Shown here: in pieces, positions 10,780 through 63,184 of the stretch
How the letters are laid out: each line of letters starts with the position of its first letter
Numbering within the stretch: the stretch's first letter is position 1
NCBI GenBank assembly: GCA_950295325.1
Contig: OX485807.1
Coordinates: 52,048,440-52,112,439 of the forward strand
DNA from: Polytrichum commune
Lineage: Eukaryota; Streptophyta; Polytrichopsida; Polytrichales; Polytrichaceae
Reading direction: 5' to 3'
Length of the DNA stretch: 64,000 bases
Made by a program: the position numbers and the translations under genes
Notes under the pieces: generated by a model
Seen by the model: only the letters and a program-made list of their open reading frames with translations
Database searches by the model: none
What the model was told of the DNA's origin: nothing

Positions 10780-10807
10780 AACACTATATTCGTTAAATTG
10801 AGACTTT
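10780..10807. repeat. Left TIR of element 1
   Basis: It begins AACACTATATTCGTTAAATT and continues GAGACTTT. It is identical, inverted, to 30031-30058. The element 2 ends differ from it at only a few positions. Confidence 0.92.
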
Positions 10808-10934
10808 TTGGGCATTTTGAGACATTCATAGAAATAAGAACAAGGATAAATGGAACACATATTGGTGAAAGTTGTAAGATGCGAACACTTTGAAGCGGGT
10901 GTTTAGACCAAGAACCCCATTAATAACTCATATT

Positions 10935-11250
10935 TGTGATGGTTTAGGGTGGGCAATCGAAACCTTAGACCAAATTGAAGGGGACATCTTAAAACATTCA
11001 TATTAATGCACACAAAATATGAGAGCTTGTATGAATATGGTTTAGGTAGGGCAATCCAAACCATAGATCTTATTGAAGGGAAAATCTTAAAACATTCATA
11101 TTAATGCACACAAAATATGAGAGCTTGTATGAATATGGTTTAGGTAGGGCAATCCAAACCATAGATCTTATTGAAGGGGAAATCTTAAAACATTCATATT
11201 AATGCACACAATAAGGCACTCCAAACCTTAGACCATATGGAAGGGGAAAT
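10935..11250. repeat. 98-bp tandem repeat near left end of element 1
   Basis: Just over three copies of a 98-bp unit containing GGTTTAGGTAGGGCAATCCA and CATTCATATTAATGCACACA lie side by side. The two central copies are almost identical, and the outer two are diverged. This is a subterminal repeat between the TIR and the first coding sequence. Confidence 0.85.
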
Positions 11251-11392
11251 CATGTCTAACTTATATTATTGCAAAAAAAAACATACAAAGTGTGGCATGT
11301 AAAATGCATATCATGCTAACACCACACATCCATTGGATAGTGCGACCCAAAATGTTCTTGCCTATGGCCCAAAACCCTACGCCTACTATGGC

Positions 11393-12195
11393 CTATCTAG
11401 CCTCGGATACTACCTCTTTTTCTTTTGCTTCATTTTCTTTTGTTTTTTTTTGTTTTTTTTCTTTTTCTTTTGCTGCAGCTTCTTTTGCTCGCATTGCTTC
11501 AACATTCCTGAAAATCTCCGCCCCGCGACTATAGCCATTCTTGGGGTGACCGCCATCCATAACACATTTTGGAGTCCGTCGGCCGCCCGAAATATACGTC
11601 GAAGAATTCGAATACGATGAAGTGGATTGTCTCGCATTTCTGGTCATGGCGTACATACGCTCGAACTCGATGGACGCACTAGACCGCATAGGTTTACGGG
11701 TGGGAGCAACCTGCAACGCGTCAATGCAAGACCACATGTGTTAGTTTAGGGAGGAAGACCCAAACGTGTCACACGTTCATTTTTTAAGTGCAAAATGATT
11801 GTAATGCGCGGTTAACCAGGTTTGGGGGGGGGGGGGTTCACCTTGTCACCGGGGGCGTTCCCGTCGGAGTCGGCGAGGAGGGGCAATGCGTCCCGCAAAG
11901 GAATAGGAAGGGTTCCACTCTTCGTTGGCCGAGCGTCCATCCGCAGCCGCCGTTGAGGTGTACTACTGCCGCCGGGCGGAGAGGGGGATGTCCGGACGCA
12001 TTTGCGATTTATGCCCTTGAGCGGCGACGGGGACCGAGAATGCCGGAAGATTTGCTTGGGTGGGGGGCTATCGACGACGCCGGCGTCAAGAGGCTCCTTG
12101 GAGTAATCAATGGTCGACGCGGCGTCGTAGACGGTCTCGTAGAAGAAGCTCCCCAAGTCCGACTCGCTGACGATGTCAATCGAGGGCTCCAAACG
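11393..12195 (-). CDS. Element 1 small two-exon unit, unknown function
   Basis: Exon a is 12195-11842 (acceptor CCAG, donor AAG|GTGAAC at a run of 13 C) and exon b is 11710-11393 (acceptor TTGCAG). Both junctions are phase 0. Exon a is Ser/Pro-rich with the conserved block ASTIDYSKEPLDAGVVDSPP. Exon b has GYSRGAEIFRNVEAMRAKEA followed by a highly charged Lys/Glu tail. Element 2 has the same two blocks at 47955-47072. Because exon a begins at a phase-0 acceptor, it needs an upstream exon, perhaps an alternative product of the large gene, whose stop lies only 170 bp upstream. Function is unknown; a coiled-coil accessory protein is as far as the sequence goes. Confidence 0.55.
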
Positions 12196-12308
12196 CTGGC
12201 GCAAAAAAGGAAACGAAACAAAACCCAAGGGAGGAGGGTTTGCTAGAGCGCGTGAAAATCAAGATACATATGAAGCATATATTACACAAAATGAACGGGC
12301 GCGTGCGC

Positions 12309-12352
12309 ACACACACACATACATACATACATACATACATACACATACAAAC
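12309..12352. repeat. (CA)n/(CATA)n microsatellite
   Basis: A run of CA repeats passes into six or more ATAC units just 3' of the FCP1-like exon of element 1. Confidence 0.9.
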
Positions 12353-12364
12353 ACACGTAGTGTC

Positions 12365-13177
12365 TCAAATGAGCTTGTTAAATTTCGCGTGAGATAACAA
12401 CTCTCTGTACAAATGGTCTCGTGGATCCAAGTATCTCTCGCCTATGGGATTATTCCTAACAAAATTGTTTACGGGCAGTCCGCTTCCGCAGAGCGCTTGG
12501 AGATATTTACCAAGGTCTAACAAAAATCGGTCCCGGACCTTCTCGACCGTCCAGGTAGGGCAAACTATGAGGTTGGCCGTCGGGTTCAACATGTTCTTTG
12601 CGGCGCTGTCGTCCACCATGAGCGTGTTCTCCCGGGTGGGACGGACGTCGTAGGGGACGCCTATCAAGGACGGTCGCTGGTCCCAAAAAATGGGCTTCAA
12701 GACCTTGAGGTATTGGGGGGAAGCGGGGTTGTTTGGTTTTTTGACGACTTTGCCGTCCGGTGTGTACAATATTCTACAGGCTTCCTGTGCTAGGACCATG
12801 CACGGGGGCTCGATGCCCTTGAAGATGAATTCCACGACGGCATTGGTGTTCTCGGCCGTCATGGAGCTCCAAACGACCACCCACCATCGTTGTTGGGCCA
12901 TCTGGAGGAAGGTCCGAAGCCACGGGCGGAGGTGAACTAGCTTGCTCTTTATGAACGTGGGCGGGCCGTCGTAATTCGCGTCCTCGGGCTTGCAAAAGGG
13001 CACCGTGGGGGTTCTCAGGCAATGAACGCATTGGACGAGGACCCCGTTCAGGTCTAACACCAGGAATCGTTTCTTCGGCCGCGGGGGCGGGGCGGGTAAA
13101 ATCGGGGGCGCCGCCGCGCTGCCCTCTCTGCTCCTTGGAGAAGAGCGTCGGGGAGCCGCTACGCTATGCTCTGAGCC
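12365..13177 (-). CDS. Element 1 large gene, exon 4: FCP1/NIF-type HAD domain
   Basis: The exon starts after acceptor TCCGCAG at 13178-13180 and reads 270 codons to a stop at 12365. Motif I is FLVLDLNGVL: the nucleophile Asp is present, but the second Asp of DxDx(T/V) is Asn, a change also seen in element 2. Motif II is VVWSSM and motif IV is LMVDDSAAKN. The domain matches the NLI-interacting-factor/FCP1 phosphatase family, and plant relatives with DLNG exist. Loss of the general acid suggests weak or absent phosphatase activity, so it could serve as a binding module. The C-terminus AKFNKLI-stop is shared with element 2, so the stop is genuine. Phase-0 joining makes this the C-terminal part of the large product. 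Confidence 0.75.
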   Translation of the reverse strand, partial: GSEHSVAAPRRSSPRSREGSAAAPPILPAPPPRPKKRFLVLDLNGVLVQCVHCLRTPTVPFCKPEDANYDGPPTFIKSKLVHLRPWLRTFLQMAQQRWWVVVWSSMTAENTNAVVEFIFKGIEPPCMVLAQEACRILYTPDGKVVKKPNNPASPQYLKVLKPIFWDQRPSLIGVPYDVRPTRENTLMVDDSAAKNMLNPTANLIVCPTWTVEKVRDRFLLDLGKYLQALCGSGLPVNNFVRNNPIGERYLDPRDHLYRELLSHAKFNKLI

Positions 13178-13648
13178 CTGCGGATACGATCGAGAGAAAA
13201 CGGTGGGCGACTTATGTCATGCTATGTCCAAACGAAGCATTAAAGAAACGAGTGTTCTCGGTGCAAACACAAAACCATTTGATTCATTTTGGAGGGGGTG
13301 CAACAAGGGACACAAGAGAGGCAAGAGCATACAACATACATTCAAACACAGGATACGAGTATATAGGAGTAAAAAATGGTGATTATATTGTATACAATGC
13401 TCTATGTACATGTTGATTGGGGGGAGCCGCGTTAAACGATGCGTTCAAACTAGCCTACTTCTACATCTAGCAAAAATTGAAGAGACGGGCCGCCGTGATG
13501 AAGACTTCGTCGCAAGCCGGGGGGTATGTGGACGAACGAATGGTCGGGGGGAAGTGGCGAAGGGCGCGAGTGCCGGGGGGGCGACGTGTCCGTGAGTTTA
13601 GGATAGTTAGGGGACACGACCAAGGCAAGAAGACAAAGACCCATGGAG

Positions 13649-14041
13649 TTTGGGTCGACCGACCCAAACTGAGTGGGGTCAGTGCATTACCTCGCCTTGG
13701 TCGTGCCTCGACGACGTGGATGCCGTCACCGCGTGCGCTGCCCCACCTCTGTCACCGCCGCCTCCGACGACGACGTCAGCCGCAACCTGCTCCTGCAAAG
13801 GCTGACTGTCAGGCCTTTGTCCCAACCCAACCTCCGCATGCGCATCATGCATTGGTTCATCGACTGGGTTAGGAGTAGAGGTATCACCAGGCCCTTGCGG
13901 GCCTTCAACGTCTAACATGGGCTCGTCCACCGGGGTCTGGTCGGGGACGGGGTTTGGGTCGGCCGACCCAAACCCTGCTGGTTGGCGAGCGTCGCTCTGG
14001 GACGCTGCAACGTCGGCACTGTTTGGGTCGGACGACCCAAA
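13649..14041. repeat. Three family-1 palindromes around the exon 3 donor and inside exon 3
   Basis: Sites at 13649-13668 (spacer AC), 13953-13972 (spacer GC) and 14022-14041 (spacer GA) are all perfect 9-bp half-sites around two variable bases. The first is in the intron just after the donor. The other two are inside coding sequence and encode GFGSADPN and MFGSSDPN. Confidence 0.95.
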
Positions 14042-15163
14042 CATGTGGGGGTCGTCCCGCTGGTGGTGTGGGGGCAAGAGGATGGGAGGCCGGAGCGGCG
14101 GGGGTGCCAACGGGCTGGAAGCTCCGGGGACGCGCCAAAGGTTGGGGTCGTCCACCTGCTGGACGGGCGCGTAAGGGCGGGCGTGCGGCTGCAGCAAATG
14201 CGCGAAGCTGAAGGACTGCTGCGGCGCCGGCCGCGGGCGGATATCATGTGGAGGGAAGCCTGCGGGCAAGTGAGGGAATGAACTCGGGGGAGCCATCACC
14301 AATCCTTGCGCCAGCATGCCCTGGATCACTTGCGTGATCAAGTCCGCTTGGGACGGAGGTGGGGCCATCGCCCTTTGCCGCTCCTGCTCCAACAGGAGAG
14401 CCCTCAATTCCGCGACTTCGTTGCGGACCGAGGGCTCCTCGGCGGCGGCCTTCTGCAATCGGACGCGTTGCTCCTCGTCCCGGAGCATCTTCGCGTTGGC
14501 CTCCTCCACGGTGAGGACCTCGGGTTTCACCCTCACCATCCCGGCGAACACTGTGGGGGAGGCAGGATCCGACCTCAGCCTCTTCACGAGCTCCATGTCG
14601 TCCTCGTCCTCGGAGCTTATGGCGATCGTCTCCTCCACCGCATAGTCGCTGTATAATTTCTTCCCCTTCAGCATTCGCCGCTCCCTGAAGGTGGCCGTCG
14701 CGTCCCTCGAATACATGTCCTTCGCGTCGGCCACCGTTAGGACGGGTACTAGCTTGCTCTGGGGCGTTGCAGCCCGCATGGCCTTCTTCCGCTGAGGGGC
14801 CTCGGATTCTTGAGTGAATCCTGTTGCCCCTTCCTCCACCTCCCCCTCCACTTTCTCTGCTTCCTCCTCCTCCTCCTCTTCCTCCCCCTCCTCCGCAACC
14901 TCGCCACCTGCTCCCATAGAGGGATTGCCCGGATGCAACCCGATGAGCGGCTCTGGCAATTGAACGGGGGCTCGCATGGCGAATTCACCCGGGTTGATTC
15001 GCCTCGCCATATCCAAAGGATTCTCGCCCCCCTCGACGATCTCTTCGACGTAGGATCCGGATATCCAGTCGAGGATGTCCATTCTCTTGGCCAGCGCCTT
15101 CTGGGTCCTGTAGAATTGAACATCGGCATCCTCCACATAGGAGTAGATGTTCAACCCAGACAT
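13691..15163 (-). CDS. Element 1 large gene, exon 3: acidic/coiled-coil and Pro-rich region
   Basis: 491 codons lie between acceptor GTGCAG and donor GAG|GTAATG, both phase 0. It starts MSGLNIYSYVEDADVQFYRT. Next comes an acidic run (EEGEEEEEEEEAEKVEGEVE), then a probable coiled coil (VEEANAKMLRDEEQRVRLQK and following RNEVAELRALLLEQERQR), and a long Pro-rich, low-complexity C-terminal part. Two family-1 palindromes are embedded in that last part. Element 2 exon 3 (490 codons) has the same order and length but little sequence in common outside the start and the coiled coil. No enzyme motif is visible; it may be an oligomerisation or linker region. Confidence 0.7.
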
Positions 15164-15248
15164 CTGCACAATCAGAATCAATACTATTAGTATCACCAAA
15201 TGAACAAATAATGGAAAGTGACATCCAAAACAAAATAAGAATAGTTAG

Positions 15249-15411
15249 TTTGGGTCGCTCGACCCAAACTATGGGCATACCTAGTTTGGGTCGCTCGACC
15301 CAAACAGACCGTGCCCCTAGTTTGGGTCGCTCGACCCAAACAGACCGTGCCCCTAGTTTGGGTCGAGCGACCCAAACAATGCATGCCCTAGTTTGGGTCG
15401 CTCGACCCAAA
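15249..15411. repeat. Five family-1 palindromes in intron 2
   Basis: Copies lie at 15249, 15285, 15321, 15357 and 15392, each 20 bp and perfect outside the central two bases (CT or AG). They are 35-36 bp apart and fill most of the intron between exons 2 and 3. Confidence 0.97.
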
Positions 15412-15445
15412 CCGTCCATATAGTTCCTTCAGGTTATTTGCTTAC

Positions 15446-16777
15446 CATGGTTGCGAAAACCGGTTTGGAGCCCCCGAAGACGTTGAAGATGCAGTCCCCT
15501 CTCTTCGTGAGGGTCCTCATCATCCGCAGGTAGAACTCCATGCACAGTTCATCCGCGGGGTAGTTGGCGTACTTCGCCTCGTCGTACAAGCTCCTGCTGG
15601 TGCCCAACCCTTCTTGGACTTGGAAGAGCTTCTCCATCCTGGCTATGGGATGGTTTGGCACCTTAAGCAGCTCAGCTTTGTACACAAAGTACAAGCACAG
15701 CACGTTGACGATCTTCGTCTTCTTGTCTTTCAGTGTGCTGTACGCCCCCTCCGCCGATGCAGCAACGTAGTGAGATTTTGAGACGGCGTACTCTGGCTGC
15801 AATTTCCGCACGATCTCGTACACCTGCTCTGCCCTCCTGTCCTCAACAATCCACAGCCAGACGTCGACCTCCCTGAATTTGGGGCTGCCGTAATCCACAA
15901 ACTTCGTGAAGAACGGCTCGTAGAATGGGGTGCTCATTGTCCCCTCGAATGAGGCTCCAGGGATGTTCCTGAAGTCTATCATTCCGAAGGGGAAGCGGTC
16001 CCCGGCTTTTGTCCTGATAGCCTTCCTGGCATCAGAGCCCGGCCATCCTTGGATCTTGAGAGGCTCGAGGGTGACCAAGTTGAAGTAGGCGTCGCCCTCG
16101 AAGCTGACGATCTTCTTCTCCTTTATAAAGTTGGAGAAGGCACGCGCGGAGTGTTCGGGAAGCGCTCGGTTCCTCCCCCCCTTCACAAGCTTGGACTTCA
16201 GGAAGTCGTCTCCCGCCTCCCTGATGAGTGCCGCCATTGACGCACTGGTGAACTTGTAGTCGGCTTTGAATTCCCTCCAGTGCGCCTCGTCGACCTCTCC
16301 ATCCACTATGAGCTTCCTTTCCGGCACCAGCTTGTCCAACTCCTGGACAATGGTCATCTTCTTTTTCCTATTCTCCGTCCATTCTTTCATGGTGTAGCAT
16401 GAAGGGACGAAGATTTTGGGCTTGATGAAGACGATCTTCGGGTGGACCCAACATCTCTTCGCCGTCGGTTGCACGTGAAGGATGTGGGACGCCGCCTTTC
16501 CCATCTCTGTCTACGAGAGACCTTGAAGAGCCCTGAAGAACTCCCTCACCAGAGGCTTCATCTGCTTGAAGCGCGCAGTCTGATTGAAGAGCATGCCGGT
16601 GTCGGGATCCATGAGGTCCCCCGTCTCGTGTTTCTCGAAAACACTCTTCCATCTCCCCCACACGGAGTCAGACGCTGTGATCAAATAAATTTCTCCTCTT
16701 AGCTCGTTGTACTTCTTCTGCTTGTGGGAAGCGTTGTCAATCGAGGAGAATTTGTTGATCATCTGGTATTTGAAGTC
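15446..16777 (-). CDS. Element 1 large gene, exon 2: conserved middle region with one in-frame TAG
   Basis: 444 codons lie between acceptor TGTGCAG and donor ATG|GTAAGC, both phase 0. Conserved with element 2 are KFSSID near the start, LVREFFRALQ, KEW-E-RKKK, FRNIPG, the VWLWIV block and the end YxVFGGxK. The frame is broken once by TAG at 16511-16513; in element 2 the aligned residue is Asp, between REFFRPLQRLL and SELYRAA. The rest is open and conserved, so this looks like a recent nonsense change rather than a gene boundary. I do not recognise the domain. Confidence 0.65.
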
Positions 16778-16825
16778 CTGCACATGAAGTAAATAACACA
16801 CGTGAGAAAACTGCGAATGCAAGAG

Positions 16826-17357
16826 TTTGGGTCGATCGACCCAAACTATAAACCTCACGAGAAAAAGTAAGCAATGTTACAGTTTGGGTCGATCGACCCA
16901 AACTATAAACACGACGAGAAAAAGTAAACAATGTTATAGTTTGGGTCGATCGACCCAAACTATAAACCTGAATAAAAAAGATAACAATTCAAGAGTTTGG
17001 GTCGATCGACCCAAACTATAAACCTGAATAAAAAAGGTAAACAATTTAAGAGTTTGGGTCGATCGACCCAAACTATAAACTTGAAGAGAAAAAGTAAGCA
17101 ATGTTACAGTTTGGATCGATCGATCCAAACTATAAACCTGAAGAGAAAAAGTAAGCAATGTTACAGTTTGGGTCAATCGACCCAAACTATAAACCTGAAT
17201 AAAAAAAGTAAATAATTCAAGAGTTTGGGTCGATCAACCCAAACTATAAACCTGAATAAAAAAGGTAAACAATTCAAGAGTTTGGGTCGATCGACCCAAA
17301 CTATAAACCTGAATAAAAAAGGTAAACAATTCAAGAGTTTGGGTCGATCAACCCAAA
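16826..17357. repeat. Ten family-1 palindromes in intron 1, 57-bp period
   Basis: Copies start at 16826, 16883, 16940, 16996, 17053, 17110, 17167, 17224, 17281 and 17338. The spacers between sites are near-identical AT-rich 37-bp blocks (TATAAACCTGAATAAAAAAG type). Seven sites are perfect with AT at the centre; the others differ by a single or symmetrical change (17110 has GGATC on both sides, 17167 and 17224 have one CpG lost). Confidence 0.97.
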
Positions 17358-17366
17358 CATACTCAC

Positions 17367-18716
17367 CTCCCATTTTGGGTTCTTGTCTTTAGCATTCTCC
17401 CTTTCCTTGGGAGGCCTGCCGTAAAACTCCCACACCTCCCTCGAGGCCATGATGTTCCGAATCCAGGATGCCTGGTACGCCCTCTTCTTGTTTCCCATGT
17501 TGAAGAAGCGTGAGATGTCGGTTAGTACGGTCTCGTTGTCAGACCAAACCACCAATGCCTTCCACACCTTTAGCTTCTCCTTTTGGTTGTTGGGGTCGTC
17601 CCACTCGGTCATCAGCTGAATTTTTTTAGACGCCTCCACACTGTGCTGGCCATCAATCAGCCAGAAGTCGCCTTTGCATATTGTCGGCCACATTTCAGGC
17701 GTCGGCATTCTCTTCAGCCCTTGCGGCATGACAACAATCGTCTGCCTGTCGTCTTTGAATTGCCCTCCCAAGATCTGAGCGACCATCCAGTCGACGTAGG
17801 CGTCCTCCTTGGCTCGGACACACTTCTTAGGTGGCGCAAGGTGGCACTGTGCAATGTTCACCTCGAACTTGAAGTCCCTGCCCATGAAGAAGCAATGCAG
17901 GCACTTCGTCTCGAAGTTATCATTGATTTTCTGTATCTCGCCTGCATCCACCTCTTGGCCAGGTTTTGGCATCCGCAGCTCCGGGGAAACTGGCTCGGTG
18001 GTCATGACGGAGGACTCTCTCGCCCTCTTCGACGGGGTCGTCTGCCGGCTTCCTGACGGGGTCGTCTGCCGGCTTCCGGACGGTGTGGGCGTCTTGCTGT
18101 CAGCCGGTGTTCCTGTAGTGCTAGGCCGTCTGGAGTCTGCAAGGACCGGACACGGTATCCTCACAGTTTGGGGTCTGCACGACCCTGCGCCTTCTTCCGC
18201 CGTTGCCTTACGCCTCACAGGCTTCTGCGTTTTGGCTTTACTTTGCAGCGCCTTGTTGAGGACCGTGATGGCCTGTTTCAATTTTGTAAACCTACTTGCA
18301 ACCTTCGTGTTGGTTACATTGCCATCTATGAAAATTGTCTCCGGTTTAATTGTTTCAGGCTCCACGCATGACTCTTTGGCGTATATAGTGTCGAATGACT
18401 CGGAGAACTGGTGCATGAACATGTGGGCGTTGTGCACGGCGGAGTTCTCAAGAATTACGTCCACGTAATCCCCGAGGGCTTGGACGGACGCAACCTCCCA
18501 TCCTGTCAACGTTGTCCAAGTGTGGTTCTCGTGGGTCCCTACTTTTACCACAAATAGGAGCTTGAACTGGGAGCCCTTTACAACCTGAACTGACCACGCA
18601 AGGACAAGCCCATCCTTGGGCACGTATGAGTCGTCCTGGGGAGTTTCATACTCCTGCCATATTACGTCTGGCGCGAGCATAAAGAACCTTTCTCCAGGTC
18701 TCTTCTTGGGGGCCAT
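17367..18716 (-). CDS. Element 1 large gene, exon 1: ParB-like DGQH domain
   Basis: 450 codons lie from an ATG placed directly at an acceptor (CTTACAG) to donor GAG|GTGAGT, phase 0. The N-terminal 150 residues are unassigned. Residues 160-240 form a Ser/Thr/Pro-rich basic linker with a repeated TPSGSRQT. Residues 270-365 look like a ParB/sulfiredoxin-type fold: CFFMGRDFKFEV, then a helix, DRQTIVVM, and KGDFWLIDGQHSVEASKK. DGQH at 355-358 matches the DGQHR motif of ParB-like and DndB-like proteins, with Ser for the usual Arg. Such domains bind DNA or nucleotides in bacterial partition and mobile systems. It is a plausible, unproven reader of the palindromes. An untranslated first exon lies upstream at about 19504-19539. 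Confidence 0.7.
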
Positions 18717-18745
18717 CTGTAAGTCCAGAAATTAAAACTATTAGT

Positions 18746-19381
18746 TTCGGGTGATCGACCCAAAGTAGTCGACAATGCATTTAACATTTGGTGGAAATGG
18801 AACAAATGTATTTTATTGACCAGCCCGAATTCAAGGTTTGGGTCGATCGACCCAAACCTTGAACACTTGGTGGCTCGTATTCTTTAAATGTGGAGGCTAG
18901 AGTGTTTGGGTCGAGCGACCCAAACATTTCATTAATTTTAAAGCTGATTTCTAGTGTTTCAGTAGATTTGAAATTGGGGTTTGGGTCGATCGACCCAAAC
19001 ATGAGGCTCTGTGGTTTGGGTCGCTCGACCCAAACATTTTATTAATTCTCAATCTGGTTTCAAGTTTTTTTTTTAATTGAAGTTTGGGTCGAGCGACCCA
19101 AACATGAGGCTCTGTGGTTTGGGTCGCTCGACCCAAACATTTTATTAATTCTTAATATGGTTTCAAGGGTTTTTTTATATTTTGAATTGGGGTTTGGGTC
19201 GAACGACCCAAACATTGCAGCCTCATGTTTGGGTCGCTCGACCCAAACATGAGCCTTTGGGGTTTGGGTCGAGCGACCCAAACATGAGGCTGCAATGTTT
19301 GGGTCGAGCGACCCAAACATTTAATCAATTTTCAAGCTGATTTTAAATGTTTCGTTACATTTTAAATTGGGGTTTGGGTCG
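18746..19381. repeat. Family-1 palindrome cluster in the 5' intron of the large gene
   Basis: About eleven good sites start at 18837, 18905, 18980, 19015, 19083, 19118, 19193, 19228, 19263 and 19298, plus degenerate ones at 18746 and 19372. Centres vary (AT, AG, CT, AA). The sites occur in pairs 35 bp apart, the pairs being spaced by about 100 bp. Confidence 0.95.
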
Positions 19382-19503
19382 CCTCCCGAAACTACTTAGT
19401 TTCCAGAGGCATGTTTAATGTTTAAACATCATATACAATGCATTGTATATGAAACATGATCGTAAAGGAAGTGAAGCAAATTGTGTAGAGTGAAATGATA
19501 TAC

Positions 19504-19539
19504 CTTGTGTTTGAAACTCTTGTAAGCTGCTCTTACAAG
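19504..19539 (-). other. Possible untranslated exon of the element 1 large gene
   Basis: Read on the minus strand, GAATCAG is followed by 36 bases and then AAG|GTATATC, giving plausible splice borders. The acceptor side is duplicated at 19560-19600. The position corresponds to the 46-bp candidate exon at 54462-54507 in element 2. Confidence 0.35.
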
Positions 19540-22500
19540 CTGATTCTTATAACCAGAATCCAGAAACTCTTGTAAGCTGCTCTTACAAGCTGATTCTTAG
19601 ATCCAGAATCCAGAAACTCTGTGATATCACTAAAAATCAACACTCAGAAACACCTAAAAATCACTATGAATCTCACAAGCACTTTGAAACCCTCTCACAA
19701 ACACCCTGATTCTTGCAAGCCTTCTGATCACTACTAATAACAACCTGAAATCACTCCACAACAACAACAAAACTCTGATGTCACTCACTGCATCCACTCT
19801 ACAATAAGAAATGAATGACACTCAACTAAAGCGATCCGGACTCACTCAATGCGTGCACGCTGAACCAGGAAGAGAGAATAAGCCTATAATCCTAGAAGAG
19901 GACTCGAAGGACCAGAGAGGAGAAGAAGAATGCAAAGGAAGAAGTGAAGAGAAAGACAAAGAGGAAAGCGGCGCTTCGCGGGAAGCGGCGCGTCCAAGCA
20001 ATACCCAATGAGCGCAAGAAGCTATGCGAAAAGACAAACTCACAATCGCTTGGCGCGTCGCTATGGAAAGCGGCGGCGCTTCGCGCGGAGGGAGAGGAAA
20101 GCGAGAAAGAGAGAAAGAGAGAAAGAGGAGGGGAGAGAAGGGGAGAGCCGAAGGGGTTCCCCTTCAGACAATCCTGGCCATGCGATTTCTCGGGCCCATC
20201 AACGGCCCAGAAGCCTCGCGGGCCAAAACCCTGCCAGGTGTCCAAACCTCCTTGGTGGAGGTGGTTGCCCGCGCGGCTTCTGGTGTTGACACATGGCACC
20301 CTATGGACATTGCCTTCGGCATTGTCCTTGCCTCTAGGGGCGGGACATAGGAGGGTCGGCGCCTCTCTTGGCCGCCCGGCCCCGGCATTCTAACCCGGTA
20401 TTCATTACCGGCAATTCAAAAACATTCAAAAAGCTACATAGACTAAGGTGTTGCACAATATTTACACCATCGCCAACTCTGATTTTAATGGTGTTGAATT
20501 GAATGATCGCCCATTGGAATTGATAATTGATAACATCGTAGCCATTATTTGTTTTGGTATTTCAATAATGTAGTCGTATGGAATCATATGAGAGTGTTAC
20601 AAAATCTAAGAGGAGTAATTCATAATTATATTGCAATCTTCAAAGGCAATTACACGGTGCAATAATATAAATATGGTAACCGTTCACATGGTTAAGGGTA
20701 TTGGGTTATGTATTCTAATTTCTATGATGGTTGTTGGTAGAGGACAAAGCTCTAGACTACAATGGATACCCTAACAAGTAGCATTACAGTGAACATTAAC
20801 ATATGTACTTAGAAGCTCAAATTTGAAGTACATGGGAGAAACAAAATGATAACAAATGTATCTACTTCAACCCCATGGACTTCACATATCATATGAAGCC
20901 ATTTAAACATTCAGTTTTTTGTTCGATGATGCCTAAACCCTAAACCCTAAACACCACAAACCATAAATGAATGGCACACACGTCAAATGACAGGGCCTTG
21001 GTGCTTGTAGTTCTCAATACAAATGTATATTCTCATCATAACATCCTAATTCACGAAAGAATGAACTCACAAATGTCATTTGTGATTTATGGTTCCGTTA
21101 ATGACTTCCACATACGTAGGTTAATGTCACACTTGCATGCTTGAGGATGGAGCAATGTTGTGTGCACACATTACAAACAACATATGTTCTTTTGATTAGC
21201 GCAAATTGAAAGTTGGCCAAAATATTCAACTTTGTCATGGCATCAATTCCTTGTTTTCAAAATATAAGTCCTCATGTGAGGGTCTAAATAATTGCATTAA
21301 CTATTATATTTAGTGACTTTTAGTATATGAGGTTTTATAATATTGGCACCTCTTTTGTCAATATATTGTTTGAATTATACCACAATGTTTGACTCCAAGT
21401 AGAATAAAACCCCTTAGATATAACCTTACATATTGTCATAGGGATATTGGTAATTAGTGTATGCATTCATATTTAGTGTATCAAACTCTATATATCCAAT
21501 TTAGTTTTATCTAGTCAATGAAAGTGTTGTAGTGTCACTACAATGAATATAATAATTACACTCAATATGATAGTTAGTGTTTGATACACTTAATAAGAAC
21601 GTTTAAAATAGATGTTGTTTGTATATGGGGGCATCAGTGAACCACTACTAAATTTTGGTGTTTAGGGTTTAGGGTTTAGGGGATAGGGTTATAACATATT
21701 AATCTATCCAATGTCAATGTATAACATTGTCTTACTCGTGAGAAGAGTCTTATAGGAAGGTTATAGTGAAGACAATATTGTGTTTATTTGAGACGTTTAA
21801 ACGCGATATATTGATTGGTCTTGTGTTTATTCAAATAACATGAAATATTGTGGATGTTAATAGGGGCTAGGGGTCCAACTTTGGATGTTTCGCTCACTTT
21901 AGGGAATCACATATTAGTCGCTAATAAACCATCGTTCATGATGTATTTAATATATGGAATGTGATGTAAAAGTAAATCGGAGAAGCACAACATCATGTTG
22001 TTATTCATTGTTCTCTCCACGTGTATTAGATAATGGAGGAAGATATAACAGATATTGTTTGCATAATATGAAGAAGAGTCTAATCGGAAGGTCATAGTAA
22101 ATACAATCTTGATCATGTTAATATGTTATATGGGACGTTTAAACATGATATCCTAATTGGTTTTGTATTTAGTCAATGCGTATTTCATGTTGTGGATGTT
22201 ATAAGGGTTTAGGGTCCAATCTTCGATGTTTTGCTCTCACACATTAGTAAACTTGAAGTGAACTTGAGGATGGATTCAAGTAACATTAAAATATTGAACT
22301 AAAAAGGGACATTGGTAGTTAGTATCCCCTTAATAACGTCCACATACGTTCGTCATTGCCACTCTTGCATGCGAGATAATAGAGCAAGGTTCTAGGGTTT
22401 AGGGTTTAGGGGAGACAAATAAATATTTCTATTCATCATGACAATGGCCTCAAGCCTTGGAAACTCTCTCATAATTGTAGCCTCCATGTGAGGCCAAACC

Positions 22501-50773: not shown

Positions 50774-50818
50774 TTCAATTCAGATGAACCATGGAAAGAG
50801 GTGCATACAAGTACTTAC

Positions 50819-52216: not shown

Positions 52217-52238
52217 TTTACGGACGCGCGTCCGTAAA
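52217..52238. repeat. Family-2 palindrome in intron 1
   Basis: A perfect 22-bp site with centre CG. Element 1 has ten of its own sites in the same intron. Confidence 0.95.
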
Positions 52239-52255
52239 ATTATACAGAGACATAC

Positions 52256-53542: not shown

Positions 53543-53596
53543 CTACAAATGTAAAATATACAAGTCAGTATTAAGGTCTAAGGATGCAAAGCCTAT

Positions 53597-54205: not shown

Positions 54206-54461
54206 CTTCAGGCCATTTTTTAATTACTCTGAATTTAATTACTTTGCACAATTACTGTGTTTCTGGATATTGCTCCGAAATTTTCGGAACAGGTTTTTTG
54301 TTGCATTCCATTCATGTGCAATGTTCATCTTTACTTGGAATGCAACATGGATTTGCACTCCAAATTAGAATATATCAGGTGTTGCATTGCAATAGCAGAT
54401 TCTACACTCCAAACTAAGAAGAATGTTCCATTTCAATTTGCAATGTACTAGAAACACTTAC

Positions 54462-54507
54462 CTTCGTACAATGTTTGCTGCTCAACCACAGCTGCAGCTA
54501 GGACAGA
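54462..54507 (-). other. Probable untranslated exon of the element 2 large gene
   Basis: On the minus strand TTAATTTGCAG is followed by 46 bases and then CGAAG|GTAAGTG, a consensus donor. It lacks a useful ATG in frame, so it is likely 5' UTR. Confidence 0.5.
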
Positions 54508-57500
54508 CTGCAAATTAACAATAAAATTGAAGTTAGAAACCTCTGGTAATGCAATGTGCACATTCAAGAATCAACTAAACTGTGTGTTGCTCCTAAAATG
54601 CATCGACCCTACACAAAAAACCCTACTACAAAGATTGCACTGGATTGAACATTGACATCAGATAGAAGTGAACAAAGCAAAACATATGATTTCTTAGAAC
54701 TTGGACAAAGTGAATTGAAGTGAAGTGAAGACAATTACAAACTGGAGGGAGGAGCACTCTGAAACAACTGAAAATACTCCAACCCTAAAACCCTTGCAAC
54801 AACTGAAACTACTCCAATAATGTCCTAATGAGACTCCAAGCAAAAAACTACTCAATTTCTGATGGTACTTGCAATTGTGAGTACAACAAAACATTGCATG
54901 CTCACACAATACTCACAATCCTCCTCTTATGCATCAAAACATACACTTAAATCACCTAATAAGCACCTGGAACAACACATCTTGGAGTGAGGGAAAGAAA
55001 AAAACACCTTCCTAGAGCTCCTGGCGCTCTTGTGGAACTAAGACACTAAGCAACAAATGAAGAGCAAGGAGGAGGAGAAAGAGGATAAACACCAATAAGG
55101 AGGAGAAGGAGGAGCAGCAAGGGCGACCAACAAGGGCGAGGAGCAAAGGAGCGATGGTGGGCAAGGAGGAAAGGAGCGAAAGGGAGTAAGCGAAAGGAGC
55201 GAAATGAGCAAAAAGGAGCGAAAGGAGCGAAGAGCAAGGGAGTGTATCGAAACCCTAAACCCTAAACGTCGCATCCACTCCTTACCTAGACATCCCATCA
55301 CCCCGCACCCAAAGGCCACATGTAACCCTTACGTGGCATATGTCTATTGGTCTTTTTTGTGATTGCTAGAGTCCACCCTCGATAAATGTTACACTTCTAC
55401 ATGTTAACTCATATTTGTATTTGTTAACAAATTCGTACTCCTCTCATATTGCTGACTAGAATGTAAACTTTGTTACATGTTAAGAATAATTTATTCCCCT
55501 CTTTGTTAATTTGCCACTTATAAATGTTAACCTACGAACTACATCCAATATTGTGAGATGACATCCATTACATTGAGTCACAACCTTTCAAAGTGGCAAA
55601 AGCCACCAAATTTGACTTTTGTGATCAAATTATTAATATGGGTTATATTGTGATTGATACACATATTTGATATTTGATAATTTTGCAAAACTCTCCCTCC
55701 ATAATTGTAATGAATCAAATTTGTTAAGCATTCAAAAAGCTCCCTTTATAGTTGTTACAATGTTAACTCACAATAAATGTAAGGAAAATTATATTCCAGA
55801 GCATCACATTTATAGAGGATGGATTGTATGTGGTTTGAGTCCAAAAACGAATACCAAAAACAATTGTTGACCAAAAATAAATGAATCTCAATGCTCAAAT
55901 TATAATAACCATCTAGGCCCAATAGTAAACATAATTCTGAAGTATGGGTTGAGGTTGAGTAACTCAAGTGTAAGATTTTCTTTGTGGACTTGTTGTAATA
56001 TGAAGGTAAGCGGGCTTTAAATTACTAGTACACTAAATATTATAAGTAGTATTGCTTAATATTTAGAATTATGGAATGCTATATTAAATATTCATTGTAT
56101 ATTATGTCATTGGCATCAATTAAATAACATCAACAATAAAAAGATAAAGCATTTTGTAACTCCAAACAATGAGTGAAACTAAATTATACCATTTCTAGTG
56201 TAGCAGGTATGGAGGGGACTTTATATTTTGAGAATAGTAATAATATTGAATATAAAGTATGTCTTCTTGATTAAGTTAAGTATAATTTTTTTTCCACAAA
56301 GGTGGGATTCAAATGCAATTGGGACAATAATATACCCATTGGCCAAAAATTCAATTAACCCTAAACCCCTACACCCTTATGAATCCCTCAATTATCGCAA
56401 TAATTTGTGAAAGGGAATTTTCAACCTAAATTATACTATCAATAGCAACTTGGGGACTTTATTGAAGTTGGACACTTGGGATGCTTTGATGTGAATATCA
56501 TTATTAATGATATTTAAATTAAGCATGTTTGAAACACAATTAACAAAACCAAACATCGAGATAATATGGGTTAAGATCAAATGCTTATAATATCTTAAAC
56601 AACGTTATGGGTTAATTCAATCCCTTTGCACATAGGTCTAAGCTTGTATTAGAACAAAAGGAATGGGTAGGTGTTGAATTTACATCCCTCTTGTCCATTA
56701 AACAACCTTCAGGATTCATGCAATCCTTCCAAACCTAGGCATGAGCTTGTATTATCGCCTATAAGTAGTAGCAAATTGTTGTTTATATTGGAGTTTTGTT
56801 TCCATGGCGACATGTATGGTTGTGTTAAGTATTCGATTATAGAATACCAATATATGATGTTCAAAACCTATCTTCAAAAGTAAAGGTTTAAAGCAAATGG
56901 ATAAATATGACTTAGAACATAACTTTGATGATCTTAAATGTTTTGAAGGCTTAATTGTTTTCATATTGTATCCCATCAAAGAATAACAAGTCTCGGCTAA
57001 ATCTTGTACTTGCCTCTAAGGGGTGGATTTTACCCAGGCAAACAAAGATTAAAAAAATGAAAGGTAAGGTTATGCAACCCAAGTACCTTTTTCCTTAGCC
57101 AAATTAAGACCACATATCGGATTGCCATTCACAATTTGATAAATATTTGTTCTATGTCACCTACTTTTTCACCACTTACCATGTCTTCAAGAATAATTTG
57201 TGAACATAAATTTGCTTGACTTTTGAAATCTTTATGGTTTTGTTTTAGAGAATTTTAAGCCTTGACATGAGTCGGGAGTCGTTTATAGGGTTTAGGGTTT
57301 AGGGTTAAGGGTATCCCCCTTGTGTCACCGACTTAATATTGGTTGCCTTATTACTATTTGGATACCCTACCCTCCCTTTTTGTCCATTATATTTTATGGG
57401 TTAATAGTATTACGTAGAACAACAATTGGTATAATTGTTTGCTTGCTTGTTTTGAATTACTTTCCACTTAAGCCTTGACATGTATCAGGAGTTGTTCAGT

Positions 57501-58500
57501 TAACCATGCTTGCATCTCTATGTCCACATGTTTGTTTAGGTTTGGGTGGTTATAGGGTTTAGGGTTGAGGGTAATAATGTTACTTGGAGCAACAATTGGT
57601 ATTGTTTGAGTATTAATTAATGTAGGTAATGTACATGAGGTACTAAAATATGTTTTTCCTCACGTATAGTGCATGAAGAAGGCTAGTATAATTAGTTTTT
57701 TTGAAGTAAATGTTGATGTACGGAAGGGGCCCCTAAGGTTTAGAGAGAAAATTGATAATATTGAATTTAATGCAACCCATGTTACCTAGGAGAATAGATG
57801 TGCTACTATCATGGCCTTACGGTAATCAATGTTTCTGTATCAGATATTTTTATACTCCATGTACTATTGTTGTTGTTGTGGTTGATTTTTCACACGATTG
57901 TATAATTTTTTGCCTACGTTTTTTAAAATGTACTCTTCATATTAGGTACTCCAATATTATTGCTCCAATAAACCACCTCTCAACAATGTTTATTGCTCAT
58001 ATAATATTAGCCAATCTACTTTGTTGTATACCACAAATACATAGATGCCTTTTTCTTTGTCATTATGTGGACTCATGGTCTATGCATGTTGTCCACATGA
58101 ATACACATTCCATTGTAAGGCTGGCACACGGAATGTAGTAATGCTAGGTTTGTATTTATAGGACATAGTTGGTGGCTGGTATCCTATGTTGGAAAACGGA
58201 TCCAAGGGAAAGCGATCAGTACTTAAGGGGACACCCCCCCACCGTCGGGACTCTTTTTGCATCTCAATTGTGGGTTGCACTCCTTGGACCCTTGTAGTGT
58301 GCTCCTGCTACAGATTTTGTGCAGGTAAAGATCCTATTGCATGGACCTATTATACCCTAAACCCCAAGCCCTGAACCCATTAGGGTAGAGAATTTGTATT
58401 TGGGTTGCACTCTCCGGATCCTTGTAGTGTGCTGGATTTTTATTTCGGACAGTTATCCTTTCTGGTGCAATGTTCCGATTTTAACGCCGCAAATCACGGA
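54508..58500. other. Central spacer of element 2
   Basis: No gene is evident. The GGAG/GAGCGAAAGG-rich stretch at 55040-55250 followed by AAACCCTAAACCCTAAACG probably marks the promoter and first exon of the minus-strand gene. The rest is AT-rich, with a MITE at 56028-56203, a dispersed repeat at 56690-56965, CCCTAAA-type runs at 57286 and 57551, and the transposase promoter near 58210. Confidence 0.5.
56028..56203. mobile_element. MITE, CACTAAATAT-type TIR (copy 3)
   Basis: GTACACTAAATATTATAAGT at the left and the inverted TATACCATTTCTAGTGTAG at the right, with inner TTAGAATTATGGAATGC and GTAACTCCAAACAATGAG arms like the other copies. It is nested in element 2. Confidence 0.6.
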
Positions 58501-58502
58501 GG

Positions 58503-59324
58503 TTTACGGACGCGCGTCCGTAAACCTTAATCATATTGGTTCTTTGAACCTTTATTTGTTTGATCCAATATTCATGTACGTTGAGGTTTACGGACGCGCG
58601 TCCGTAAACCTCCATACCTTTGGTGCCATATGTCACCTACACCACGTGTTGTGTCGAGTCTGTATGTCACCTACACCACGTGTCGTGTCGTGTCTGTATG
58701 TCACCTACAGACCGTGTCGTGTCGAGTACCACAATGCGAATATATTGCCATGGAAGTTTACGGACGCGCGTCCGTAAAACGTGAACCCCTTGTCGCGTTG
58801 TACATCGTATTCAGGCTAGTAAAGAGGTCCACAGAGGTTTACGGACGCGCGTCCGTAAACCTGGAAACCTTTGTAGACCATGTGCCATGTAGGGGATTGC
58901 ACAGAGGTTGTACGGTCATGAAGGGTTGGGAGCTCGCATCCCTTAGCCTACATCACCCTATGTGTCATAGTATAATATTTGACATTGATAGAACATAGTA
59001 GGAAGTGCGTATGATAACCTCTTCAAATTTCATGAGTCGTCAGGCCTGCGTATACATGGCCCTGTTGCCAGGAGCTCTTGCTTCCCCGAACCTCCATGTC
59101 TAGGACTGCATTTTTACGGACGCGTGTCCGTATACCTATGTTGTGGTTTAGCATGATACTGCACTGTGTGCAGGAGCCGATTTACGGATGCGCGTCCATA
59201 AAACAGTGGTGTTTTGGTTGTCATCACCTTTCCGCTGACTATGAACACATAAATGTATCCGTCTACGCGTGTGCTTGCGTTGCTAATGTTGTTACATGGA
59301 GGTATACGGACGCACGTTCGTATA
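58503..59324. repeat. Family-2 palindrome cluster upstream of the transposase
   Basis: Sites start at 58503, 58587, 58757, 58838, 59113, 59181 and 59303. The first four are perfect; the others have paired or single changes (59303 is TATACGGACG against CGTTCGTATA). A short CACGTGT(C/T)GTGTCG tandem repeat lies between the second and third. Confidence 0.95.
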
Positions 59325-59469
59325 CCAATGCTAGCTTTGTTTCCAAGCCATGATATCAACTATTGTTCACATTGTGTTTCATTGACAATAACAAGCGTTA
59401 GGGCTATCCATGACATTTATTGAATGGGATATTTTGACATACTCTTCATTGGGCTTTCTTGTAGTGGCC

Positions 59470-62400
59470 ATGGATTCCAACGTCAGTGATAGTGGGGTTG
59501 ATTTTTTTTCGGAAGCGTCAAGCTATGATAGCGAGTTTGAAGTTGTCGTGGAACAAGATACTACAATTGGTGTCGCCAATGTAGAGGATGAATTCCTTCC
59601 ACCATGTGAGGGTTATTCGCGGGAGCAGTGGATTGATCTTGATGTCGTCCTAGTCAATGGATGTGGCGTCCCCGTGGCCGATGGTGTTTGTCGGAACTCG
59701 AATCCTACGGATTGTATTGATGCAAATCCCCTGGGGGAAGAAGATGTGGGGGTGTGCATTTTGAATTCCTTACATCCGTTGGAAGTGCCTTCTGGTTGGA
59801 GATTCTCTCTTCATCGATGGTCGTTGCGCAGTGTTCTTCATGATGGTGTCAGCTTGTGGAATCATGCCCGCCGTTTTGATCAAATGCAATCGGCTTTGTT
59901 CTCCACAACGCGCCCTAGAATAGGTCGGCGTAAATATGATTCCTTTCGTTTGCCTCGTGAACCCACGCAACGTCGTCGAGATCAAACATTGGGAGATGCA
60001 TCTATTAGGTCCGTAGCAACAAAGGATTGTTGTGCAAAGAGATGTTGCCAACTATTTCCCCGTGACAAGATCAAATCTTTGAGACAAGAGATGTGGCTCG
60101 CGGACTTTCGTATGCGATCTGCAAAGAAACTTGAAGTCCATCGCAACATGCACCTTGATGTCGAAGGTCGTAAGGTTGTAACCTTGGAAAATGTGGAGAT
60201 ATGTTGCAAGGCATGGTACATTATACATGCAGTTTCAAAGGCAAATTTTTATAGGTTCCGGAACTACTCGATGCAAGGACGCCGTTCTCGGTTCCATGGC
60301 AACTCTGGCACAAAGAAGCCTAGGGAGGCAACACTCCAAGCGGCTGCAACACTATCAACCATCATTATGCCATTGGCAGATGCGATGCCACACAAGACGC
60401 GGACTCTGCCGTCGGGGGAAAAGGTTGTACAGATGGTTTTGCCTACAGGGACAAAATGGAAGAACATACTTATGGATGTTAATGAAGTTGGCGAAAAGGC
60501 TGGATGTGGGCCGATTTCGTTGTCAAAATTGAGTGTGATCAAGAATCAACAATTCGCAGAATACATTACGAAGAGACCTGGGGATAAGTTTGCCAGGTGT
60601 TCTGCTTGTCAGAAATATAAAGGCCTTCGAGATGCACATCCCATTGGGACTGAGTCCCACAACCGACATCAACTGAAATACATTGAGCATGTCAACAACC
60701 AGGAGGCACACCGTCAAGACTACTACAAGAATCGCGCATTATCGATAATGAGGCCGAATGAGGTTTTGACAATCATTCATGACAAAATGGACCATACAAA
60801 GACGGCGTGCCCTTGTTATGCGCGGAAAATAAAGGCTACAGATGGATATTTCAAGCTTCCAATATCTGTCACAGGTTTGTTGGTTTTCACATTTATTTTT
60901 TGCGCGCCCACATACTCATTGTTAAGATTTACGGATGTACGTCCGTAAGTGTACATTTTTTTGCTTGCTTGGGGAAATTTTTGAATTTCATTCATATATA
61001 CGATTTGTGTGGCTAAATGCAGGTATGATCGCACATGGTCATGTGGACGTGAAATATGCACATTATGGCTTGGATTTCTATCCTGGCGACGCCAATCATA
61101 CCGTAGGGTCTTTTGCAAAACTTCTACGAGATCTTGAGAGTCCGCCCACATCATCCTCTCGTGCTCTTTTTGTTGGATGTGGAACAACACCGATTTATGA
61201 GGCTGTGCTAGAGGGGAAGGAGGTTTGCCTATCTTCACTGCAAGAACCGCCTGAACAACCCGTTATTGTTAAACCTTTGCCTCCAACTCTACACGTGCAA
61301 CTAGACAATTGTGCCAAGGACAACAAATGTCGATACGTATTTTGTTTTTGGTCATTGCTCGTAGCCAAGGGCATTTTCAAAGAAGTGTTTGTGTCTTTTT
61401 TGATGGTTGGCCACACGCACGATGACATTGACGCTTCATTCGGACGTTGGAGTATGAAGTTGCACGAGGAGGATTTTCCCACAATTCCTCTTCTCATGAA
61501 ATCGTACATGGATTTGGATAATGTGCCAGTCATCCCGCATTTGATTGAAGAAGTGCCCGATTTCAAATCGTTTATCAAACCATTCATTCTTAAGGGAGGT
61601 GACCGCTTAGTGGGCCATACCAAGGCTCAACAATTCCGATTCTATATACGTGATGATGGTCTGCCGGCCATGCAATTCAAAGTTTTGTGTACCTCCCCGA
61701 ATTGGGGCCCAGAGGAAGGGATACTCGTATGGCGCCAAAACGAAGATGGCAAATGTATGCTACCTGATGGGGAGCCGAAGCCTTGCAAACCCAACCCCAT
61801 GAGGAATGGACCAGAAATCATCAAAGGTATATCTGGATTCATCGAGTACTGGAAAGATTTGTACGAGGAAGACATCACAAGACGTGTTCGGGATACCCAC
61901 GAACCATTGATTGCGTATTGGGATCGCATCCGCTCAGCGTTGCTAGCACCCGAAGACGATAGACCATCATGTTTGACACAAGGTTTTTGGCCACTAAGCC
62001 GAGTGACAATCGTGGAATCTGAGGCCATGTTCTTCAACAATGGGGACGTCCGTGAAGAGTTCGCGGCGGACGACCATTATGTTGGCCCTGCTCGTAATCG
62101 CCCGGCTCCATCATTTCGTGTGGCTATTGATTGCTACGAAGGTTATATGGTCCTCGTACGTCCTGGAGATGAGGAACATCCTAAACCGATTTGGTTGGTG
62201 AAAGCATTGTCATCACCAAATTTTGTTCCAACTAGCCCAAATTTTCGTCAAATTGAGGTGGAATATTGCCGTCCAAGCACCAAAGATCAAAATGTGCTCC
62301 GCACATATTTAGGGTGGGACACGAAAAAAGGTTTCAAATGGACAATGGACTCAGCATACGAACCAATATGGATAAACACGGATACCATACTTTGTGCTTG

Positions 62401-62545
62401 GAAACCACGCAAAGGTTCCAAAATTGAAACAATGACCATCCCCCAAAAACATATAGATTTTGCCAAAGACAACTTGGCACGTATTGCTGCTGCAGAAAAC
62501 AATGTCGAGAATGGAAATGAAGCAGAAGATGAAGATGGTGAATGA
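59470..62545 (+). CDS. DUF7869-type transposase-like protein of element 2
   Basis: Exons 59470-60874 and 61023-62545 join at phase 1 (ACAG|GTTTGT and AATGCAG|GT) to give 975 aa. The ATG at 59470 lies just after an acceptor (TTCTTGTAG). The order is that of element 1: acidic N-terminus, DCCAKRCCQLFPRDK, GRKVVTLENVEICCKAWY, CSACQK, LTIIHDKMDHTKT, VQLDNCAKDNKCRY and VGHTHDDIDASFGRWSMKL. The frame is intact. The three acidic blocks are the probable catalytic site of an RNase H-like transposase (inference). The intron contains a family-2 site at 60928-60949. Good conservation over the whole length between two diverged elements implies purifying selection, that is, recent activity. Confidence 0.87.
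60928..60949. repeat. Family-2 site in the transposase intron
   Basis: TTTACGGATG-TA-CGTCCGTAAG differs from the consensus at two positions. The equivalent intron of element 1 has no family-1 site. Confidence 0.85.
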
Positions 62546-62659
62546 TATTGACGTAGGTTTGGACCAAAGATATTTGAATGTGTATTGGTTTTTCATAAAA
62601 TATATGACATTGGGGTCGAATACTATATTAGACACATTTTATAGCAATTTTATAGATTA

Positions 62660-62945
62660 CAATTATATTGCATGGATGCATTGATTTACGGATGTGGAAT
62701 CCAAATGTTTTTTATGTTTGTGTTTTTACGGATGTGGATCCTAAACTATATAATTATATTGCATGGATGCGTTGATTTATGGATGTGGAATCCAAATGTT
62801 TTTTATGTTTGTGTTATTACGGATGTGGACCCTAAACTATATAATTATATTGCATGGATGCATTGATTTACGGATGTGGAATCCAAATGTTTTTTATGTC
62901 TGTGTTTTTACGGATGTGGACCCTAAACTATATAATTATATTGCA
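62660..62945. repeat. 91-bp tandem repeat 3' of the element 2 transposase
   Basis: About three near-identical units contain TTTACGGATGTGGAATCCAA and TTACGGATGTGGACCCTAAA. The TTTACGGATG start resembles a family-2 half-site without its partner. Confidence 0.9.
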
Positions 62946-63156
62946 GATGCTAATTTGCAATTTCGTGTCATTGGAATATTGTGTTGGCATAGTTTTGATT
63001 ATCAACTGAATAATTACTATATTTAGAAACATATATATTCATCACATATGGATCTTTAAAACATTATGTTGTCATTGTTCCCCATGTTCCCCATGTTCGC
63101 TACGTTCACAATATTCGCATCCGAAACTACGGGTCCAATTTATTTTGAGACTTTCC

Positions 63157-63184
63157 AAAGTCTCCAATTAACGAATATAGTGTT
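63157..63184. repeat. Right TIR of element 2
   Basis: AAAGTCTCCAATTAACGAAT then ATAGTGTT is the inverse of the left end with one mismatch. GAGACTTTCCAAAGTCTC just inside forms a small palindrome. Confidence 0.92.

Follow-up and report, generated by a model that had tools for sequence, protein, structure and literature searches.

In En/Spm (CACTA) transposons, the element-encoded TnpA protein reads repeated subterminal motifs and affects methylation of its promoter. The ParB-parS system has palindromic cognate sites, and Sola DNA transposons make a 4-bp target duplication. VANDAL elements have a MULE-type transposase, ends without long terminal inverted repeats (TIRs) and a 9-bp duplication. 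According to PMC5735166, VANC motifs form tandem repeats in introns of two genes, VANC21 and VANB21, and upstream of a third, VANA21, and the motifs of VANC6 are also found in AT9TSD1, which is unrelated to VANDAL. This analysis concerns 64,000 nucleotides of the Polytrichum commune genome (assembly GCA_950295325.1, contig OX485807.1, positions 52,048,440 to 52,112,439 of the forward strand), a whole stretch that is called the window and that holds two complete-looking DNA transposons, element 1 (E1) and element 2 (E2), each with its own repeated palindrome. Most of the lineages sampled in this genome repeat a palindrome of their own at matching control regions, much as though each had a private lock and its own reader. 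These palindromes are probably binding sites of a dimeric protein encoded by the element, probably by its left operon, which would act in trans as an activator or anti-silencer.

Palindromes of two neighbouring transposons

E1 (10780..30058) has the TIR AACACTATATTCGTTAAATTGAGACTTT at either end and a 4-bp duplication, TAGT (10776-10779 and 30059-30062), and E2 (46762..63184) has the TIR AACACTATATTCG(G/T)TAATTGGAGACTTT and the duplication ATGA (46758-46761 and 63185-63188), all limits being read from the sequence. The ends are TIR-like over 28 bp, start with AACACTATATTCG in both elements and are identical in their first 13 bp. At up to one mismatch the TIR pattern is found genome-wide 918 times in forward and 955 times in reverse orientation, and 0 times as a reversed control. 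In their 4-bp target duplication these elements resemble Sola. The two flanks of E2 match adjoining parts of E1, with 90% and 88% identity, so E2 lies inside element-1-like transposase sequence. In both elements the transposase gene is on the + strand and the left operon has the opposite orientation, with exon 1 (in which there is a GQH motif), exon 2, an exon 3 that is acidic and of low complexity, a NIF/FCP1-like phosphatase domain and further frames; the exon limits and splice sites were placed by eye, without RNA.

Motif 1 (M1), TTTGGGTCG-NN-CGACCCAAA, has 49 sites in the window at up to three mismatches, 29 of them exact, where shuffled sequence gives a mean of 0.02 and at most 1. Motif 2 (M2), TTTACGGACG-NN-CGTCCGTAAA, has 20 sites, 11 of them exact, between 49102 and 60928 (shuffle mean 0). 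All motif 1 sites but one, 48 of the 49, lie in E1 between 13649 and 26268, and the remaining one, at 11332 with three mismatches, looks spurious. A scan of the window found neither motif in the other element or anywhere else in the 64 kb, so an earlier note on this DNA was right that each motif is confined to its own element there. Its statement that neither occurs in host DNA is good for the window and fails genome-wide, where motif 1 is also found in a second, unrelated repeat-gene family.

As the earlier note had described, the sites occupy matching places of the two elements; by the gene models used here these places are six (coordinates are on the + strand). Upstream of exon 1 there are 11 sites in E1 (18745..19317) and seven in E2 (53678..54205). 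Intron 1 has an array of 10 sites with a 57-bp unit in E1 (16826..17357) and one site in E2 (52217..52238), and intron 2 has an array of five in E1 (15249..15411) and two sites, with 1 and 2 mismatches, in E2 (50702..50772). At the end of exon 3 lie two sites of E1, in its 3' part (13953 and 14022), and one of E2 (49214), and intron 3 has one in each element (13649 and 49102); together these span 13649..14041 in E1 and 49102..49235 in E2, where both have three mismatches. Upstream of the transposase gene, E1 has an array of 19 sites (25066..26268), 14 of which have one half-site altered to CGACCGAAA, and E2 has seven sites (58503..59324). One more motif 2 site, with 2 mismatches, is in the transposase intron of E2 (60928..60949), and no E1 counterpart of it was counted.

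Palindromes across lineages

A search with PF25273, the DUF7869 model, gave 1490 candidate transposase copies, of which 150 were scored, and 20 of these 150, picked for varied frame lengths and scores, were fetched with 3.8 kb upstream; their motifs were found by a de novo search for repeated palindromes. Counting E1 and E2, 17 of the 22 transposase loci bear one of five lineage-specific motifs, and five are without any. M1 is found in L012 and L013, and M2 in L014, L018 and, as a single site, in L017. M3, TTTACGAACG-NN-CGTTCGTAAA, is found in L015, L016 and L019, M4, CCCACGGGTG-NN-CACCCGTGGG, in L005, L006 and L010, and M5, CCCACGGGCG-NN-CGCCCGTGGG, in L007, L008, L009 and L011, of which L007 and L008 have it only at one mismatch to the consensus.

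On the transposase tree of these 22 loci, six labels, one for each of the five motifs and one for their absence, require 6 changes, where the minimum is 5 and label shuffles have a mean of 14.8 and are as low in 0 of 200. A branch sets off M1 from all other loci, and the same is true of M2 and of M4; M3 is interrupted only by the motif-less L020, and the grouping of M5 is not settled. In 8 of 8 left operons the motif is that of the transposase side, L024 having a single site at one mismatch, and the order of their exons is unchanged where it was found, L021, L023 and L024 showing part of the operon only. A matrix of the five motifs and 30 loci has no locus with a second motif at exact match. 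A third subfamily (L029 and L030), with an E2-like exon 2 at 77% identity, again has M2. The 17 loci, the concordant left operons and the label shuffles support the earlier view of a set-wise replacement of the motif that follows the lineage.

An array stands directly 5' of the transposase gene in the lineages checked, and transposase and motif share a tree, both of which could also be expected if the palindromes were internal binding sites used by the transposase for transposition, with the logic of subterminal repeats. This is improbable: the TIR ends of E1 and E2 are alike though their motifs differ, the sites are in introns and promoters, and motif 1 is present in the unrelated repeat family at loci (L042-L045) with no exact AACACTATATTC. 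The nearest sites are also 2.9 and 3.8 kb from the ends of E1, leaving aside the doubtful site at 11332, and 2.3 and 2.2 kb from those of E2. The reader would rather be a protein other than the transposase, because E1 and E2 share the TIR start and have transposases about 65% identical, but differ in motif and in left-operon proteins (31% identity in exon 1 and 36% in exon 2 over the aligned parts). Repeated motifs and a presumed element-encoded reader are shared with En/Spm TnpA, from which this system differs in that the motifs are internal (in E1 and E2 at least 2.2 kb from the ends, without the site at 11332), palindromic and variable between lineages, and subterminal clusters were not found in these two elements.

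Other palindromes were predicted in the same places of other lineages, and this was also put to a blind test. With the M4-lineage exon 1 of L022 as query, 97 of 818 candidates were scored, which gave close copies and 25 rows at up to 30% identity, mainly over the GQH domain; nine of the 25 were fetched by protein match alone, with their flanks unseen. All nine loci hold sites of four new palindromes with a CG-NN-CG centre, which lie 5' of exon 1 and, at up to 2 mismatches, also after exon 1, in the apparent intron 1. These are M6, GGTTCCTCTCG, in L031-L033, M7, ACTTTCACTCG, in L034 and L039, M8, ACTTCCACTCG, in L035 and L038, and M9, ACTTCCTCTCG, in L036 and L037. Eight of the nine loci exceed all 30 dinucleotide shuffles (maximum 1); in the ninth, L031, one site is exact and three are degenerate. 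Six control stretches of 4.5 kb, taken from parts of the window away from the motif regions, give no more than 2. Upstream of L034 and L036, divergent DUF7869-like transposase frames were recognized by eye; M7 and M9-core sites lie 5' of these frames, so that the two loci appear to belong to elements of this kind. The two motifs of the window are thus extended to at least nine. All nine are palindromes of 20-24 bp with a 2-bp centre, beside the gene.

In the 408 Mb of the genome searched, exact sites number 9731 for motif 1, 1147 for motif 2, 644 for M4 and 340 for TTYCACTCG-NN-CGAGTGRAA, and the reversed controls give 0 in each case. Their location was tallied from sites listed by position on C1, which are not random samples. 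Among the first 100 motif 1 sites listed, 81 are in three C1 stretches with TIR and an E1-like cluster layout, two of them between TIR pairs (611-629 kb and 2113-2130 kb) and one beside a single TIR (1175-1191 kb), and one of these stretches has a DUF7869 match among those listed; the remaining 19 are at four second-family loci without such TIR. All 50 motif 2 sites listed accompany an exon-2 match or a TIR of such elements, three being tied to them only after fetching, and 38 of the 50 listed motif 4 sites are near a transposase or exon-1 match. Motif 4 sites are also present in a repeat at L059-L062, which has the form CATCATCAAATGTGTG-CCCACGGGTGAACACCCGTGGG-CCATGTAAC, with variants, and does not match the proteins of the elements; adjoining it, a stretch of 280 bp matches L017.

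The second family comprises, among the loci fetched, L042-L047, L055 and L056. Its copies, of which 114 of 2164 candidates were scored, often have a frame of 742 amino acids (aa), and the protein has no Pfam match. L042 and L045 are at such copies, and L043 and L044 have, by eye, the same flanking sequences as the second L045 array. In 12 further copies, sampled on the 3' side of the frame used as query, motif 1 is found in four and absent there from eight. The sites lie in an apparent intron and adjoin a copy of the start of the next exon, and arrays stand beside this duplicated exon start in some copies. A single gain of the array does not emerge from the second-family tree, which has 2 changes, with one origin in 9% of bootstrap trees. 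A palindrome around GTGCGTTAACGCAC (L044, about 4270-4300) or GCGCGTTAACGCAC (L045, about 6340-6370) lies beside the motif 1 arrays and is perhaps part of the end of the second family.

The presence of motif 1 arrays in some copies of an unrelated repeat-gene family argues for use in trans, and if the palindromes are indeed read by an element protein, this would be one parasite using another's key. The same arrays bear on whether a lineage-matched element protein instead represses or spaces its own transcription, as a control of copy number. Palindromes at both promoters suit a repressor no less than an activator, and a NIF (phosphatase-like) domain is in the same operon, but an unrelated element has no clear gain from repression and yet part of one carries the arrays, and arrays in introns would be unusual for a repressor. 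Repression is hence unlikely.

Genes of the elements and their putative reader

The left operon of E1, on the - strand, begins with exon 1 (17364..18716), an open reading frame with an N-terminal domain, a basic linker and a domain with the GQH motif 'FWLIDGQHSVEAS', as delimited by alignment over motif lineages. Exon 2 (15437..16780) is interrupted in this copy by one TAG at 16511-16513, exon 3 (13690..15163) is low-complexity and acidic, both with inferred limits, and the NIF/FCP1-like phosphatase domain (PF03031; 12368..13195) has a Pfam E value of 1.4e-14. In E2, also on the - strand, exon 1 (52255..53542, far limit inferred) is interrupted in this copy by one TGA at 52484-52486, and exon 2 (50822..52150) is an open frame, of which a 100% identical copy lies at C5:52154479-52155807, about 55 kb off and in the opposite orientation. 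The exon 3 region (49140..50624, limits inferred) has one in-frame stop at 50352-50354 by the inferred frame, and the phosphatase domain (48047..48826) has an E value of 2.1e-12. The transposase genes, on the + strand, are at 26459..29527 in E1 (exons 26459-27902 and 28041-29527; 976 aa) and at 59470..62545 in E2 (exons 59470-60874 and 61023-62545; 975 aa), with inferred splice sites; in Pfam their exon-2 frames match DUF7869 only and their exon-1 frames match nothing.

The NIF domains of E1 and E2 have a D-x-N-G motif, which is the same in L022 and L024, where the family motif is DxDx(T/V); judged by these residues, catalysis may be altered in these elements. An insert with ends TGTGAG...CTCACA and a 5-bp duplication CTCCA lies within E1 at 22487-24437, and a 95% similar one, with the duplication ACGAC, is in the motif 1 array of L044; the insert in E1 looks like a solo long terminal repeat. 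Two inverted open frames of 738 aa, at 6331-8544 (-) and 34098-36311 (+), flank E1 and match aromatic amino acid lyase (PF00221, E about 1e-150). TTTAGGG-like repeats were also noted.

Exons 1-3 have no significant Pfam match. The GQH motif is invariant in two alignments of exon 1 and presumably recalls a ParB/Srx-like fold. Predicted binding sites that are palindromic and stand beside the gene, for all nine motifs, are a likeness to ParB-parS; the differences are the lack of a ParB profile match in Pfam and PDB searches, the setting in a eukaryotic transposon and the many different sites. The label ParB-like, which the earlier note gave to exon 1, accordingly finds no backing in these profile searches. 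Between motif lineages exon 1 diverges most in the linker and the N-terminal domain. M8 and M9 proteins are 65% identical in the N-terminal domain, 50% in the linker and 81% in the GQH domain, and an M1-M1 pair is 84%, 77% and 89% identical, respectively; because same-motif pairs also differ in the linker and N-terminal domain, this comparison does not locate the part that would read the motif.

Each element would make a DNA-binding protein that reads its own palindromes. The half-sites of 9-11 bp and the fixed 2-bp centre argue for a symmetric dimer, in which each subunit would contact one half-site. The likeliest source of the binder is the exon 1-exon 2 product of the left operon, and the NIF phosphatase domain, like the acidic exon 3, would serve as an effector part. 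The protein would act in trans on sites of its own lineage, at the two promoters and in introns, and would most likely make or keep these regions active against host silencing, as VANC does for VANDAL; the anti-silencing role is suggested by this parallel, by the places of the sites and by their presence in an unrelated repeat. Lineages would diverge by joint change of protein and sites, and arrays would allow sites to change and spread as units. In its core, the earlier proposal of a co-evolving, element-encoded dimeric reader is thus probable, with support from the lineage test and from the distant loci. A single host factor that reads all motifs was set aside, as the nine have different outer sequences.

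Several observations weigh against this reading. No known DNA-binding domain was found by Pfam or PDB profile searches, the latter giving for exon 1 and exon 2 a single weak match each (E 1.1 and 0.72), and AlphaFold models of exon 1 and exon 2, made from the window sequences only, have a mean predicted local distance difference test score (pLDDT) of 29.5 and 32.1. L001-L004 and the damaged L020 have no motif within 3.8 kb upstream; L001-L004 are distant DUF7869 copies, with transposases 25-28% identical, and are possibly relatives without the motif system. Seven of the 50 listed motif 4 sites are in the repeat at L059-L062, which could not be tied to these elements. At one mismatch, an M4-like site is present once in L009 and once in L023, and L027 has two M3-like sites. 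Intron 1 of L035 has hybrid sites, with the left half CCACTCG and the right half CGAGAGG, and that of L038 has M6/M9-like sites, although both loci have M8 5' of exon 1. Four M8-core sites, TTCCACTCGGGCGAGTGGAA or its complement, are on C1, 12-31 kb from distant exon-1 matches, one of which, L031, is of M6. These hybrid and M6/M9-like intron sites, the M8-core sites near M6 and the CGACCGAAA half-sites of E1 suggest that a motif site changes one half at a time and that the M6-M9 clade tolerates neighbouring motifs. The motifs are therefore private in that no locus has a second one at exact match, and not private in that sister motifs intergrade in one clade and motif 1 is shared with an unrelated family, so that strict privacy, as in the earlier note, is an overstatement.

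Tandem Repeats Finder arrays hold 41 of the 48 E1 sites, which also weighs against a reader, and the uniformity of the motif in E1 is therefore partly due to duplication or conversion. Taken further, tandem slippage and gene conversion could have homogenised a chance palindrome in each lineage by concerted evolution, with no reader at all, and the same centre, AT, in 24 of 24 M7 sites would fit this. Such an origin is very unlikely, since the E2 sites agree though 0 of 20 are in Tandem Repeats Finder arrays, and all nine motifs are palindromic with a 2-bp centre. The flanks of the clusters are also unlike while the motifs agree: with one site per cluster, the mean information of M1-M5 is 1.54-1.68 bits in the motif columns and 0.13-0.42 in the 14-bp flanks, for 11-22 clusters each and sites gathered at up to three mismatches, which raises the motif value. 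M6-M9, with 2-7 clusters and higher flank values, are too few for weight. The NN centre varies in M1 and M3, and the central CpG of M2 is intact at 65 of 89 sites, compared with 318 of 356 positions for the four motif CpGs (p 2e-4), where selection of sites by likeness to the motif, at up to four mismatches, favours this result.

A more specific form of the element-encoded reader can be imagined, as a diversifying code of at least nine palindrome-protein pairs in one genome, in which a GQH-domain protein, possibly a ParB-like clamp, and a partner resembling a carboxy-terminal domain (CTD) phosphatase would load on the palindromes and hold transposon chromatin open, and in which unrelated transposons would join by growing arrays of the palindrome of a resident lineage. 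In this detail the proposal is speculative and rather unlikely.

Relation to VANC and VANDAL

Among known systems, VANC with VANDAL21 and VANDAL6 is the most similar, as it has short lineage-specific motifs, tandem repeats, places in introns and upstream regions, and sister variants (PMC5735166 and PMC10398659). AT9TSD1 with its VANC6 motifs parallels the second family with motif 1. The term 'palindrom' is absent from the text of PMC5735166, and the motifs of the present elements are palindromes of 20-24 bp. The earlier note had named VANC and VANDAL as the nearest logic with different genes, which is apt, as the places of the sites, the tandem repeats and the unrelated carrier all match (PMC5735166). 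Lineage-specific motif repeats in non-coding regions, which mark VANDAL, are found here too, with two sites of E1 and one of E2 in exon 3. The differences are the DUF7869 transposase in place of a MULE one, the TIR-like ends with 4-bp duplications, and the number of motifs, at least nine in one genome. By analogy, this is a system that would work like VANC-VANDAL but is not a member of it. No mention of DUF7869 was found in the papers searched, and the titles and abstract openings on ParB/Srx or NIF with transposons, on Sola and on palindromic anti-silencing motifs do not describe these elements.

If the proposed reading is true, anti-silencing through helper proteins that read motifs had an origin separate from that of VANC, in a different superfamily of transposons. 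One genome would then hold at least nine specificities, some of them one symmetric base apart (M2/M3, M4/M5, M7/M8 and M8/M9), which would be a natural series for the joint change of a protein and dozens of its sites and could yield sequence-specific tools for chromatin editing.

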